A stretch of DNA of 64,000 nt from the NCBI RefSeq assembly GCF_003054555.1, contig NZ_CP026304.1, forward strand, positions 5,704,001 through 5,768,000, in the 5' to 3' direction. Numbering within the stretch: position 1 is the stretch's first letter; the number at the start of each line of letters is the position of its first letter. Source of the stretch: Streptomyces lunaelactis. Lineage in GTDB: Bacteria; Actinomycetota; Actinomycetes; Streptomycetales; Streptomycetaceae. Under the pieces are notes generated by a model. The model was not told the DNA's origin. It was given only the letters and a program-made list of their open reading frames with translations, and made no database searches. Below, piece after piece: positions 59,964-64,000 of the stretch. The translations under genes and the position numbers were made by a program.

Positions 59964-60146
59964 CTACTCGTCCTCGTCCTCGTCGTCCAAGCGCGCCAGC
60001 CAGGTGGCCAGGCGTTCCACCGGGACCTCGAAGTCCGGGTTGAGGTCGACGAAAGTACGCAGCTGCTCGGCCAGCCACTCGAAAGTGACCTCCTCCTCGC
60101 CGCGTCGCTTTTCCAGCTCCTCGATGCCGCGATCGGTGAAGTACAA
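59964..60146 (-). CDS. Small acidic protein (DUF6104-like)
   Basis: 60 residues. TTG 60146 is behind AGGAG and gives MYFTDRGIEELEKRRGEEEVTFEWLAEQLRTFVDLN. The tail ends in an acidic string (RLDDEDEDE). Short, highly charged and conserved in Streptomyces, as far as I recall, as a single-copy gene of unknown function. Longer frames upstream have no ribosome site. The 140-bp gap on the left holds nothing recognisable. Confidence 0.7.
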   Translation of the reverse strand: MYFTDRGIEELEKRRGEEEVTFEWLAEQLRTFVDLNPDFEVPVERLATWLARLDDEDEDE

Positions 60147-60275: not shown

Positions 60276-60722
60276 ATGAACGGACGCGTCCAGCAGATCG
60301 AATTACCCGGGGGAGCGGTCGTGCTCGCCCGGTTGTCCACCACCACCGGCGGTGGATACGGCGAGGACGACGAGGACGTCGGTTTCGCCGAGAACGTCAC
60401 CGCCAAGGTCCAGCAGCTCGAGCGGCTGATCTCCGAGGTGGGCGCCTCCGTGCTCGAGGCCGCGGCCGCCGCCGGGCCGGACGAGGCCAGCGTCACCTTC
60501 GGCGTCGAGCTCACCGCCAAGTCCGGGGTCGCCCTCGCCGTACTCGCCGCGGGGGAGGCCAAGGCATCCGTCCAGGTCACCCTCACCTGGAAGCTGAAGG
60601 ATCAGCCGGAGGCCGAGCCGGACCCGGACCCGGAGCCGGTGCGGCGGCCGGTCCCGGACCCGGAGCCCCAGCCGGACCCGGTGCCGCAGCCGGACCCCGC
60701 CCCCCAACCCCCCACCTCATGA
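60276..60722 (+). CDS. CU044_2847-like (trypsin-co-occurring) protein
   Basis: 148 residues from ATG 60276 (GGGGGA upstream). The core (about 1-105) is QIELPGGAVVLARLS...AKVQQLERLISEVGASVLEAA...ASVTFGVELTAKSGVALAVLAAGEAKASVQVTLTW, the pattern of the trypsin-co-occurring domain called CU044_2847 in Streptomyces annotation. The C-terminal 40 residues are a Pro/Asp/Glu repeat (PDPEPQPDPVPQPDP). It overlaps the protease gene by ATGA and is probably its inhibitor, adaptor or sensor. Confidence 0.8.
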   Translation: MNGRVQQIELPGGAVVLARLSTTTGGGYGEDDEDVGFAENVTAKVQQLERLISEVGASVLEAAAAAGPDEASVTFGVELTAKSGVALAVLAAGEAKASVQVTLTWKLKDQPEAEPDPDPEPVRRPVPDPEPQPDPVPQPDPAPQPPTS

Positions 60723-62731
60723 CCGACTCCGACTCCTTCATCGACGCCCTCACCCGCGCCGCCACCGTCCACCTCACCCCCGCCGACCAGGGCCAGAACC
60801 CCGCCACCATGTGGGGCAGCGGCTTCTTCGTCGCGCCCGGGTGGGTGCTGACCTGCGCGCACGTCCTCGCGCCCCACCTCAAGGGCGACCGGGCCCGCGT
60901 CTTCCACCTCCGCGGCAGCGAAGTGAACGGCGGCGAGCCCGTCGAGGCGCAGCTCTCCTGCTGGCTGCTCGACGGCGAGCCCCGCGCCGAGCAGCGCGTG
61001 CCCGTCGAGCAGGATCTCGCCCTCGTACGGCTCATCGAGCCCGACGTCGAGCACGAGTGCGTCTGGCTCACCGACCGCACCGAGTACCCCGGCGGCCGCG
61101 GCATCGTCCAGGGCTACCGGCCCGAGCAGCAGGACGGAGCCGAGGCCGAAGCCGCGAAACGCGCCGTCCGCTGGAAGGCCGCCGCCCGCATCAACGGCTT
61201 CGACGACGACTACGGCATGCGTTTCCGGCCAGAGGCCGAGTTCCCCAAGGGCGGCTCGGGCTCCCCCGTGCTCGACGCCCACACCGGCGCCGTCGTCGGC
61301 ATCCTCAAGTCACGCCGGGTCGGCCGCGACGGCGGCATGGCCATCGCGGCCACCGCTCTGCGCCGCTTCGGAGCCGCATACCAGCTCGTCATGGCCGCGC
61401 ACGACCGCTGGCACGGCCAGTCCCCGAAGGTCACCGGGCACAACTGGATCGAGCGCCAGCACCAGCTCCCCGGCGCCGGCGTGCACACCGGCGGCGACCA
61501 GTGGAGCCCCGAGGACCGGCGCGAGGCACTCTTCCTGCTCGCCGGCGTACACCCGCCGGCCGGTATCCGCCCCGTCGCCGAGCTTGCCAAGAAGGCCCGC
61601 GGCGGCGTCGCCCCGCCCCCCGGGCAGCTGCCGCCGCGTATCTGGCGCGACGGGCACGGACTGCTGTACGAGGCCGGGCAGCCCGTCGCCGCCATCGCCG
61701 CGCTGCACTACCTCCAGCTGGTCGTCGAGTACGAGCGCAGCCGCGGCGCCGACGCCGCGCCGCTCGGCGACTGGGTGGCCCGCCGGCTCCAGGACGTGCC
61801 CCGGATCGTGCACACCGTGGTGACCCAGGCGACGCTGCCGCCCGGACTCGTACATCCGCGCAGCCCCGACGGGCAGGACCGCGTCGTCGTCCGCTATCCG
61901 CGGCCCGGCGACGGGTCCGCCGTCGTCATCGTCGAGCTGGAGCCGGTCTGCGACGCCCGGCCCGCCCGCTTCTACTGGCGGATACGGGTCGACGACGGCC
62001 GCGACGTCAACGAGCCGCTGCACGAGGAGCAGACCGGCGAAGGCATCGCGCCCGAGCTGCTCGTCCAGAGGCTGCGCGGCCCGCTGGACGAGGTCTTCGC
62101 CTCCGTCGACTCGCCCGGCGCCCCCGCCCCGCTCGAAGTCGCCCTGCCCGCCGACCACTTCGACACCGCCGTACACCGGTGGCAGCTCACGGAGATGGCC
62201 AGGCTGCACCATCCGGCGTATGTCGGGGTACGGCGGATGGTGGTGCTGCGCGACCTTGCCAGACGAGGGGAACCGGACGCCGTTTGGCTGCGCCGCTGGG
62301 CGGGGATGCTGGCCGCCGAGGCGCTCACCGCCTGCCGCACCCCGCCGCAGCGGCAGGTCCCCCGGCCCCGTCAGTTCGAGGAGATGCCGCCGTCCGCCGT
62401 ACCCGTCCTGTGCCGGCCCGCAGGCAGGGGGGTGGGACGAAGAGCCATCGGCATGGCACTGCAGGCCGGACACGGCATCGCCCTGTGGCACACCGACGGC
62501 CATCCCGACAACGGCTGTGCGGAGTTCTGCGAGGACGTGCACCAGGGCGCGGCCGCACTGATCGCACAGACCGCGGGAGCGATGGAGCTCCCGGACCGCC
62601 TGCGCCGTATCAGGGACGACATCAGCGGATCGAGGAACAGCCGGCACTGGGCGGAGGGGGTGGCCATGCTCTACGACGACCCGAGCCGCCCTCTGCCCGC
62701 CGACGACAACGGACCTGTGGACTCCCCATGA
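60719..62731 (+). CDS. Trypsin-like protease fused to a VMAP C-terminal domain
   Basis: 670 residues. N-terminal trypsin-like protease with His48 (LTCAHV), Asp99 (EQDLALV) and Ser180 (KGGSGSPV) all in place; no signal peptide. A helical region follows (about 262-350: SPEDRREALFLLAG...LHYLQLVVEYERSRG) of effector-associated-domain type. The C-terminal ~300 residues form a VMAP-C domain (LPADHFDTAVHRWQL ... GVAMLYDDPSRPLP). VMAP links vWA-MoxR pairs to effectors in NTP-dependent conflict systems. Starts by ATGA overlap and ends by ATGA overlap with a small frame. Confidence 0.85.
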   Translation: MTDSDSFIDALTRAATVHLTPADQGQNPATMWGSGFFVAPGWVLTCAHVLAPHLKGDRARVFHLRGSEVNGGEPVEAQLSCWLLDGEPRAEQRVPVEQDLALVRLIEPDVEHECVWLTDRTEYPGGRGIVQGYRPEQQDGAEAEAAKRAVRWKAAARINGFDDDYGMRFRPEAEFPKGGSGSPVLDAHTGAVVGILKSRRVGRDGGMAIAATALRRFGAAYQLVMAAHDRWHGQSPKVTGHNWIERQHQLPGAGVHTGGDQWSPEDRREALFLLAGVHPPAGIRPVAELAKKARGGVAPPPGQLPPRIWRDGHGLLYEAGQPVAAIAALHYLQLVVEYERSRGADAAPLGDWVARRLQDVPRIVHTVVTQATLPPGLVHPRSPDGQDRVVVRYPRPGDGSAVVIVELEPVCDARPARFYWRIRVDDGRDVNEPLHEEQTGEGIAPELLVQRLRGPLDEVFASVDSPGAPAPLEVALPADHFDTAVHRWQLTEMARLHHPAYVGVRRMVVLRDLARRGEPDAVWLRRWAGMLAAEALTACRTPPQRQVPRPRQFEEMPPSAVPVLCRPAGRGVGRRAIGMALQAGHGIALWHTDGHPDNGCAEFCEDVHQGAAALIAQTAGAMELPDRLRRIRDDISGSRNSRHWAEGVAMLYDDPSRPLPADDNGPVDSP

Positions 62732-62841
62732 GGAGCCGCCCCGGGCACGGGGACTCCGAGCACTGGGACACCAGGGCGGTGGGTACATACCCGACGTGGT
62801 CCGCCACGACCCCCACCGACCGCCGACCGGGCACGCCCTAG
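62728..62841 (+). CDS. Possible 37-residue small protein
   Basis: ATG 62728 overlaps the VMAP stop as ATGA and the frame ends in TAG at 62841, 9 bases before the MoxR start. The product begins MRSRPGHGDSEHWDTRAVG and is Thr/Pro-rich. It lies within the operon and has the coupling seen between other gene pairs here, but no homology is known to me. A spacer that happens to be open is equally possible. Confidence 0.3.
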   Translation: MRSRPGHGDSEHWDTRAVGTYPTWSATTPTDRRPGTP

Positions 62842-62850
62842 GAGCGAGCG

Positions 62851-63852
62851 ATGGACGACTGGCTGATCTACCGAGGCGTCGGAGCACCGGATCCCGATCG
62901 GATCCGGCAGCTTCCGCCGCCGCCCCCCTGGCGCGCCTTCTCCGGAGAGCCGCTGCCCGGCGCCGCGCCGCCCATCGACAGCTCCTCCACCCGGCGGCTC
63001 GGCGCGCGCGTCGCGGCCCCGCCCGCGCAGGACGCCGAGACGCTCGAACTCATCAACGCCGCCCTCTACTTGAGGCGTCCGCTGCTCGTCACCGGCGAAC
63101 CGGGCTCCGGAAAGTCGACCCTCGCGCACTCCGTCGCGTACGAACTCGGCCTCGGCCGCGTGCTCCAGTGGCCCATCGTCAGCCGCACCGAGCTGAAGGA
63201 CGGGCTGTACAGCTACGACGCCATCGGCAGGCTCCAGGACGCGCAGCTCGCCGAGCGGCAGTCCGACGACATCGGCAGGTACATCAGGCTCGGGCCGCTG
63301 GGCACCGCCCTGCTGCCCGCCGAGCGGCCCCGCGTGCTGCTCATCGACGAGCTCGACAAGAGCGACATCGATCTTCCCAACGACCTGCTGAATGTGGTGG
63401 AGGAGGGGGAGTTCGCGCTCCCCGAGCTGGAGCGGATGGCCGACCGGCCCGGCCACGACGAGGTGCGGGTGCTCACCGACGACGGCCGCCGGGTGCCCGT
63501 GCGGGACGGCCGGGTGCGCTGTCACGCCTTCCCCTTCGTGGTGATGACCAGCAACGGCGAGCGTGACTTCCCGGCCCCGCTGCTGCGCCGCTGTATCCAT
63601 CTGCACCTCGACCCGCCGCGCGACGAGCGGCTCGCCGCCATGGTCCAGGCGCACTTCGGGGCCGGTGCGGACGAGCGGAACCTCGATCTGATCGGGCAGT
63701 TCACGCGCGAGGACGGCGACGGCGAGCTGCGCCCCACGGACCAGCTGCTGAACGCGATCTTCCTCACCCAGCACGCGGTACGCCAGGAGCCGGGACGCCG
63801 CGAGGAGATAGCCGAGCTGCTGATACGTCCTCTCGACACCCGGCAGCGGTGA
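62851..63852 (+). CDS. MoxR-family AAA+ ATPase
   Basis: 333 residues, ATG 62851 with AGGAGC. Walker A GEPGSGKST (about residue 84), Walker B VLLIDELDKSDIDLPND, sensor 1 FVVMTSNGERDFP and arginine finger RRCIHLHLDPP. A long N-terminal segment (1-65) precedes the AAA core. MoxR ATPases remodel targets together with vWA proteins. In these systems they form the NTP-hydrolysing switch that arms the effector, here probably the VMAP-linked protease. Confidence 0.93.
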   Translation: MDDWLIYRGVGAPDPDRIRQLPPPPPWRAFSGEPLPGAAPPIDSSSTRRLGARVAAPPAQDAETLELINAALYLRRPLLVTGEPGSGKSTLAHSVAYELGLGRVLQWPIVSRTELKDGLYSYDAIGRLQDAQLAERQSDDIGRYIRLGPLGTALLPAERPRVLLIDELDKSDIDLPNDLLNVVEEGEFALPELERMADRPGHDEVRVLTDDGRRVPVRDGRVRCHAFPFVVMTSNGERDFPAPLLRRCIHLHLDPPRDERLAAMVQAHFGAGADERNLDLIGQFTREDGDGELRPTDQLLNAIFLTQHAVRQEPGRREEIAELLIRPLDTRQR

Positions 63853-63856
63853 TGAC

Positions 63857-64000
63857 GTGAACGCGGCTCCCGCTCCCCTCACCGCGCTGGTCGCGCGCCT
63901 GCGTGAGGCGGAACTGAAGCCGACCGCAGAGGAGTTGGCGGACGCGCTGTGGCTGTCCCGCTTCGTACCCGCGGCCGCTTCCCGCCGCGCGGGCGCCGAG
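63857..64000 (+). CDS. SAV_2336 N-terminal-type protein, 5' part (runs off window)
   Basis: 48 residues from GTG 63857, 4 bases after the MoxR stop. LTALVARLREAELKPTAEELADALWLSRFVP resembles the N-terminus of the SAV_2336 family (my recollection), which accompanies MoxR and VMAP genes in Streptomyces and often carries a vWA or formylglycine-like domain downstream. The rest lies outside the window, so domain content is unknown. Confidence 0.6.
   Translation, partial: MNAAPAPLTALVARLREAELKPTAEELADALWLSRFVPAAASRRAGAE

Follow-up and report, generated by a model that had tools for sequence, protein, structure and literature searches.

VMAP-ternary systems are conflict systems delineated by comparative genomics, in which genes for a VMAP protein, a MoxR ATPase and a vWA protein stand in that 5' to 3' order and the MoxR is defined by two N-terminal motifs, WxhapG and PsWRxa (PMC7159879). 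For the whole family, Kaur et al. proposed that VMAP senses, that MoxR and vWA set a threshold and that proteolysis frees effectors carried on the vWA protein (PMC7159879). A 2024 paper on systems linked to diversity-generating retroelements (DGRs) in Thiohalocapsa and cyanobacteria, which likewise combine a trypsin-VMAP, a MoxR and a vWA protein, makes the vWA protein the sensor and the N-terminal part of VMAP, e.g. a protease, the effector (PMC10907252). The two models thus disagree over which part senses and which part acts. Here, we describe a VMAP-ternary operon at the right edge of a 64,000-nucleotide stretch of Streptomyces lunaelactis (positions 5704001-5768000 of contig NZ_CP026304.1, hereafter C1; host genome 8.57 Mb), referred to throughout as the window. 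It belongs to a small clade of stripped, four-gene operons in which an experiment could decide between these models. On balance, we favour reading it as a complete Trypco1/trypsin-type system at the usual address of the genus, whose FxSxx/TIR-AP-ATPase module has been lost and whose MoxR/vWA-gated protease would be its own output.

A complete four-gene core

The core comprises four plus-strand genes, encoding Trypco1, a trypsin/HtrA-like protease fused to VMAP-C, MoxR and a vWA protein with tetratricopeptide repeat (TPR)-like helices (Table 1). The operon runs beyond the window to ~67135 (window numbering; read from the genome) and the next gene, on the opposite strand, is kgd, with 107 bp separating the two stops. 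An initial annotation, made from the window's letters, had placed the operon among the VMAP-ternary conflict systems of the Aravind group, and domains, gene order, MoxR motifs and the metal ion-dependent adhesion site (MIDAS) all agree with this. Neither of the two outcomes it had named beforehand as fatal, the lack of a vWA/TPR partner and an insignificant VMAP-C match, was found.

The first gene was correctly recognised as a CU044_2847 relative, matching NCBIfam CU044_2847_fam (NF041216, 71.1 bits) as well as Pfam, and it shares an ATGA overlap with the protease-VMAP gene. The fusion of trypsin to VMAP-C was also borne out (PF13365, residues 33-195, E 3.4e-14; PF20028, residues 417-655, E 3e-37, 129.2 bits against a cut-off of 27), and this adjacency of Trypco1 and a trypsin-type VMAP is that of the Trypco1/trypsin type. 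The catalytic triad H48/D99/S180, reported as intact, was invariant across an alignment of 30 sequences, the window's among them (30 of 34 references, without L130, L165, L174 and L188; L denotes loci and G sampled genomes). The motif contexts of the triad were kept in 54/54 proteins from the same address (see below). The protease part has an HtrA/DegS-like fold. HtrA proteins carry PDZ as their C-terminal part, whereas here that part is VMAP-C. The middle part had been called a helical effector-associated region. It is helical by model, but a named VMAP-M or effector-associated domain (EAD) was matched by 0/30 members (Pfam, E up to 1), so that the profile search proposed for VMAP-C, EAD and trypco domains returned the first and the last only.

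The Walker motifs of MoxR are intact, as had been noted (Walker A GEPGSGKS, Walker B LLIDEL), and by inspection its N-terminal WLIYRG and PPWRAF fit the two VMAP-ternary motifs. The fourth gene, seen only as a truncated SAV_2336-type gene in the window, encodes 1092 residues and matches NCBIfam SAV_2336_NTERM (residues 23-463, E 1.4e-127). A vWA gene had been expected to the right of position 64000. The partner is indeed there, not as a further gene but, judged from its motifs, as the SAV_2336 gene itself, after which comes kgd. The MIDAS residues D176xS178xS180 and D233 were invariant in an alignment of 29 sequences (29 of 35 references, without L116, L150, L162, L174, L184 and L188; for L116, the active-site motifs were inspected on their own) and lie at or just past the ends of predicted strands. 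Of these 29 sequences, five matched the Pfam model VWA_CoxE with E values up to 1, the best being 9.8e-4. The C-terminal half of the protein is a predicted TPR-like helical superhelix, and no recognised enzymatic or effector domain was found on the window's vWA protein.

A fixed address between DUF6104 and kgd

In an even sample of 121 genomes of the same genus, the window's own included, kgd was located in all 121 and the DUF6104 gene, which bounds the operon on its left, in 119; both flanks lay on one contig in 110. The distance between them was ≤651 bp in 43 genomes, 1.2-4.5 kb in 12 and 7.1-25.5 kb in 55. All 67 longer stretches were read, together with G094, G101 and nine of the other 41 short ones. 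Protease-VMAP, MoxR and vWA genes occurred in the same order at 54 loci among the 110 genomes, 52 of them between the flanks; in the other two (G094 and G101) the DUF6104 gene was displaced to the kgd side. Trypco1 was matched at 47/54 of these core loci, with no match at its usual place in G037, G038, G041, G052, G069, G076 and G081. The site was near-empty in 41/110 genomes, a call that for 32 of the 41 is based on flank distance alone, and these sites are natural recipients for an isogenic comparison. Filled sites lacking the full core were found in G013 and G106 (Fxs genes only) and in G009 (MoxR, vWA pieces and Fxs genes, no VMAP). G013 (L039) and G106 (L096) show the reverse of the window's case at the same address, with Fxs maturase and FxsT genes and without VMAP, MoxR or vWA.

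The address was also apparent in 80 named loci, which were collected by similarity to the N-terminal part of the vWA protein and not at random. DUF6104 lay upstream in 71 of the 73 with room for it and kgd was visible in 64/80. Both flanks were present in loci from Streptantibioticus and Actinacidiphila as well (L171, L180, L183). VMAP-C proteins are common in the genus, with matches in 102 of the 121 genomes, and the window's VMAP-C was the sole match in its genome at E up to 1e-6.

For the 58 named loci with enough kgd and MoxR sequence (L160 and L166 left aside), kgd and MoxR distances were correlated (Mantel 0.358; maximum of 999 permutations 0.234), and the nearest neighbour by MoxR was within the three nearest by kgd in 32/58. 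Median distances were 0.36 for MoxR and 0.10 for kgd. As the correlation is only moderate, simple vertical descent of the operon was rejected, and descent with exchange at the site appears likelier.

Absence of the FxSxx module in the window's lineage

In most relatives, the vWA gene is followed by FxsB (a cyclophane-forming radical SAM/SPASM enzyme, TIGR04269) and/or an aKG-HExxH peptide hydroxylase (TIGR04267), together with FxsT (FxSxx_TPR, NF040586; TIR, NB-ARC and TPR). Family names were assigned from proteins of G003, G119 and G061, and other loci were traced by similarity. FxsT was present at 50/54 core loci, 49 of which also held a maturase. The four without it were G000 (the window), G091, G016 and G066. 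Behind the window's vWA gene there was neither an effector gene nor an FxSxx module before the kgd stop. The window shares its address, core genes and TPR-only vWA protein with the FxSxx-COOH subclass, but the whole peptide/effector module that marks this subclass behind the vWA gene (FxsA peptide, radical SAM maturase FxsB, TIR-AP-ATPase-TPR protein FxsT) is absent from its lineage. By a strict C-terminal pattern, a small open reading frame (ORF) ending in FxSxx was seen behind the vWA gene at 5/55 vWA loci.

The named loci gave a similar division: 62 of the 80 carried FxsT, four had FxsB with no kgd in the stretch, six were short (L113-L116, L129, L187), six were short and of a fused type and two were unresolved. 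All four loci nearest over the full query were short (L113-L116, from Streptomyces sp. NBC_01481, S. jumonjinensis, S. inusitatus and S. albipurpureus, respectively); L142, 68% identical over the part held, carries the module. Together with G000 and G091, L113-L116 constitute the stripped clade of six members. In a tree of the 54 concatenated cores (quick search without bootstrap), G000 and G091 were nested among module-bearing operons, in sets of 8 and 9 rows with SH-aLRT (approximate likelihood-ratio) values of 97 and 100. From this nesting we infer that the module was lost, which is the simplest reading. Nor does the module seem to have been relocated, since a locus-type FxsT query found best matches of only 29-30% identity elsewhere in the genome in 7/7 cases (G000, G091, L113-L116, L129); the same query reached 55% in G018 and 67-70% in G044, both module-bearing.

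The two other core loci without FxsT differ in form. The vWA protein of G066 (L076:3800-8299) is fused to NB-ARC, trypsin and a second VMAP-C (Pfam) with kgd directly next, and this genome has a locus-type FxsT elsewhere (47%). In G016 the vWA gene is comparably long and is hit by the VMAP profile, too. Judged from matches to that profile, L148, L149, L155, L158, L159 and L161 probably carry the same fusion, again with kgd directly next.

The host genome does hold two standalone FxsB/FxsT clusters (C1 1341583-1349375 and 1857946-1865750; FxsB at 1348296 and 1864668, FxsT-like genes at 1341583 and 1857946), a kind of cluster also described in PMC7159879. The stripped operon might then act in trans on effectors such as these. 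We consider this quite improbable. The host's FxsT-like proteins are at most 30% identical to locus-type FxsT, and FxSxx_TPR matches (E up to 1e-30) occurred in 119/121 genomes whether or not the operon was present, which argues against the standalone clusters being a specific partner.

A missing module and the many near-empty sites would also suit a decaying remnant that is disappearing after loss of its effector. Pairwise dN/dS among the six stripped members (15 pairs each, Nei-Gojobori) was 0.17-0.31 for VMAP, 0.07-0.17 for MoxR and 0.25-0.36 for vWA, and 0.34 for Trypco1 (G000-G091). These values are well below 1, all four genes are kept, and all six members retain an intact triad, P-loop, Walker B motif and MIDAS. 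The core, on this codon evidence, is still under purifying selection despite the absence of the module, which is not the picture of decay, and we regard a remnant as very unlikely.

The protease as the probable output

Gene composition and order, the intact catalytic, nucleotide- and metal-binding residues, the address, the absence of module and FxsT and the purifying selection are all read directly from the sequences. They show a well-formed operon of an already described class, in a new variant state with the module missing and at a fixed address. Compared with the Trypco1/trypsin type of PMC7159879, it is alike in VMAP-MoxR-vWA order, VMAP-C, MoxR motifs, MIDAS and a Trypco1 gene beside trypsin-VMAP, and differs in that neither an effector domain was recognised on its vWA protein nor an effector gene found downstream. 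The DGR-linked systems differ in another respect, as none of the window's four proteins matched a C-type lectin domain (Pfam).

Under the reading we favour, the vWA-TPR protein would recognise a trigger through its TPR superhelix and MIDAS site, and the vWA-VMAP complex would be remodelled by the MoxR ring at the expense of ATP. VMAP-C would relay this remodelling to the fused HtrA-like protease, restrained at rest and possibly held by Trypco1 as an adaptor or inhibitor, and the freed protease would be the output. Where relatives possess the FxsA/FxsB/FxsT module, this switch probably governs it as well; in the window's lineage the protease would act without it. The operon might have an anti-phage role, as the initial annotation suggested. 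Having shed the peptide/effector genes, this lineage may therefore show what the protease does alone.

That effector domains borne by the vWA protein are released, as in the model of Kaur et al., seems unlikely for the window. That model was proposed for the whole family (PMC7159879), and some relatives at the same address do carry extra domains on the vWA protein, as in G066. At its C-terminal end, however, the window's vWA protein has TPR-like helices, no enzymatic domain was recognised in it and no effector gene follows, and yet the stripped clade keeps its triad and remains under purifying selection. Given an unmutated protease and no recognised effector on or behind the vWA protein, the window's lineage fits the protease-as-effector model better. 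The initial annotation had the protease as the unleashed element; with no effector domain found on the vWA protein or nearby, this suits the window better than the 2020 model.

Several points weigh against a self-sufficient protease switch. The window's own vWA protein matched no Pfam vWA model, and the best 50 Foldseek hits for its model were helical-repeat proteins with no vWA domain. Whether the module was lost or originally absent depends on tree placement, from a quick search without bootstrap. A substrate or effector may lie elsewhere in the genome, e.g. in the two standalone Fxs clusters. As to activity, trigger and target, the system is known here from sequence alone. A literature search that covered subscription journals and preprints thinly returned no experiment on a VMAP-ternary system and nothing usable on Fxs chemistry at these loci.

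One address and the published two-peak distribution

Kaur et al. described two symmetric preferred positions, ~33% from either chromosome end, for these systems in Streptomycetales and proposed arm recombination (PMC7159879). We compared this with the VMAP matches listed on 40 long contigs, 16 at the DUF6104|kgd address and 36 elsewhere. Among the matches listed at the address, those with kgd on the plus strand (4) fell at 0.29-0.33 of the contig and those with kgd on the minus strand (11) at 0.59-0.75; the exception was G085 (kgd plus, 0.815). Thirteen of these 16 lay within 0.28-0.40 of a contig end. The matches listed elsewhere were spread out, with 8/36 in the 0.28-0.40 band, about the expectation for an even spread. 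kgd itself was found at 0.29-0.38 in 15/19 contigs with kgd on the plus strand and at 0.59-0.75 in 19/21 with kgd on the minus strand, the six remaining contigs being rearranged or differently cut. One locus read in two record orientations would therefore give both published peaks, and a single DUF6104|kgd locus can account for the two 'preferred locations' of 2020, although the published data set itself was not re-analysed. A fixed address is a simpler account of that bias.

A bolder version holds that the stripped clade represents a naturally occurring minimal system, showing the protease, rather than FxsT or an effector on the vWA protein, to suffice as output of VMAP-ternary switches, and that DUF6104|kgd is a single, ancestral address for immunity in Streptomyces and its near relatives, with many alleles, one of them empty, and alone yields both peaks. 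We offer this tentatively, as the more doubtful extension.

The gap between the VMAP and MoxR genes

The initial annotation was mistaken in letting the ATGA at the VMAP end overlap MoxR. It overlaps a 37-codon ORF instead, and MoxR starts 119 bp past the VMAP stop. We examined this gap in 117 loci, omitting eight named loci that duplicate sampled genomes and L160 and L166 (two systems per stretch); a MoxR start was found in 115, and 104 had a non-negative gap. The loci are related, so that counts are not independent, but they span distant clades. In 57/104, the frame overlapping the VMAP stop met the MoxR start in an exact 4-nt overlap, compared with 5 and 2 of 104 for the other two frames; the window, whose ORF stops short of MoxR, is outside the 57. 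The VMAP stop was TGA in 102/104. ORF length ranged from 5 to 120 codons among 80 loci listed, and what is retained across the genus is the frame and the start/stop overlaps, not the peptide sequence. A conserved peptide or protease substrate was rejected, with a pN/pS of 0.94 (57 same-length pairs, not independent; 0.76 and 1.04 in shifted frames) and differences by codon position of 437, 345 and 361. We read the ORF as a translational coupling bridge, going by these overlaps.

The same gap holds GGGTACATA at 62781-62786, present in 6/6 stripped members, which may be an internal promoter. The pattern GGGTA[CT] occurred in 46/100 gaps against 8.9 expected, and a fuller SigB pattern in 25/100 against 2.6 (expectations from base shuffles, the loci being related to one another); the consensus, a -10 with a GNNT -35, was taken from PMC8346170. 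In the window, a GNNT -35 matching the GGGTAC element was absent. By its -10, a SigB promoter may precede MoxR there.

Such a promoter would suit a serious rival, in which the operon is a proteostasis or developmental stress machine, a stress-sigma-controlled HtrA-like protease gated by a MoxR-vWA chaperone. The HtrA/DegS fold is consistent with this, as are the fixed position next to kgd (in most genomes not near a chromosome end) and the weak, partial matches that were all PADLOC-DB returned (best 2e-6, mad8 to residues 60-102 of MoxR). We nevertheless hold it unlikely. The operon is polymorphic for presence and absence (54 vs 41 of 110), MoxR diverges faster than kgd and downstream modules are exchanged, as in conflict loci, while the window's SigB-like element has no matching -35.

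Table 1 Features of the operon and its left boundary (window numbering)
Feature	Position	Strand	Remarks
DUF6104 gene	59964..60146	-	TTG start; PF19599, E 5.2e-37; left boundary of the address; divergent from the operon
Trypco1 (CU044_2847 family), 148 aa	60276..60722	+	PF19493, 62.7 bits (cut-off 24.6)
Protease - helical middle - VMAP-C, 670 aa	60719..62731	+	Triad H48, D99, S180
Bridging ORF, 37 codons	62728..62841	+	ATGA overlap with the VMAP stop; ends 9 nt before MoxR
GGGTAC element (SigB-like -10)	62781..62786	+	Common to all six stripped-clade members
MoxR AAA+ ATPase, 333 aa	62851..63852	+	AAA_5 and AAA above cut-off
vWA-TPR gene, start (SAV_2336 N-terminal type, 1092 aa)	63857..64000	+	Extends to ~67135

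Two features at the left end of the operon are of minor note. Trypco1 ends in a repetitive, Pro/Asp-rich tail of ~40 residues, which might serve as a linker or as bait for the protease. The DUF6104 protein ends in a run of acidic residues reminiscent of the 'acidic type' peptides that occur in some VMAP systems (PMC7159879); because the DUF6104 gene also sits at near-empty sites, this tail is probably unrelated to the VMAP system.

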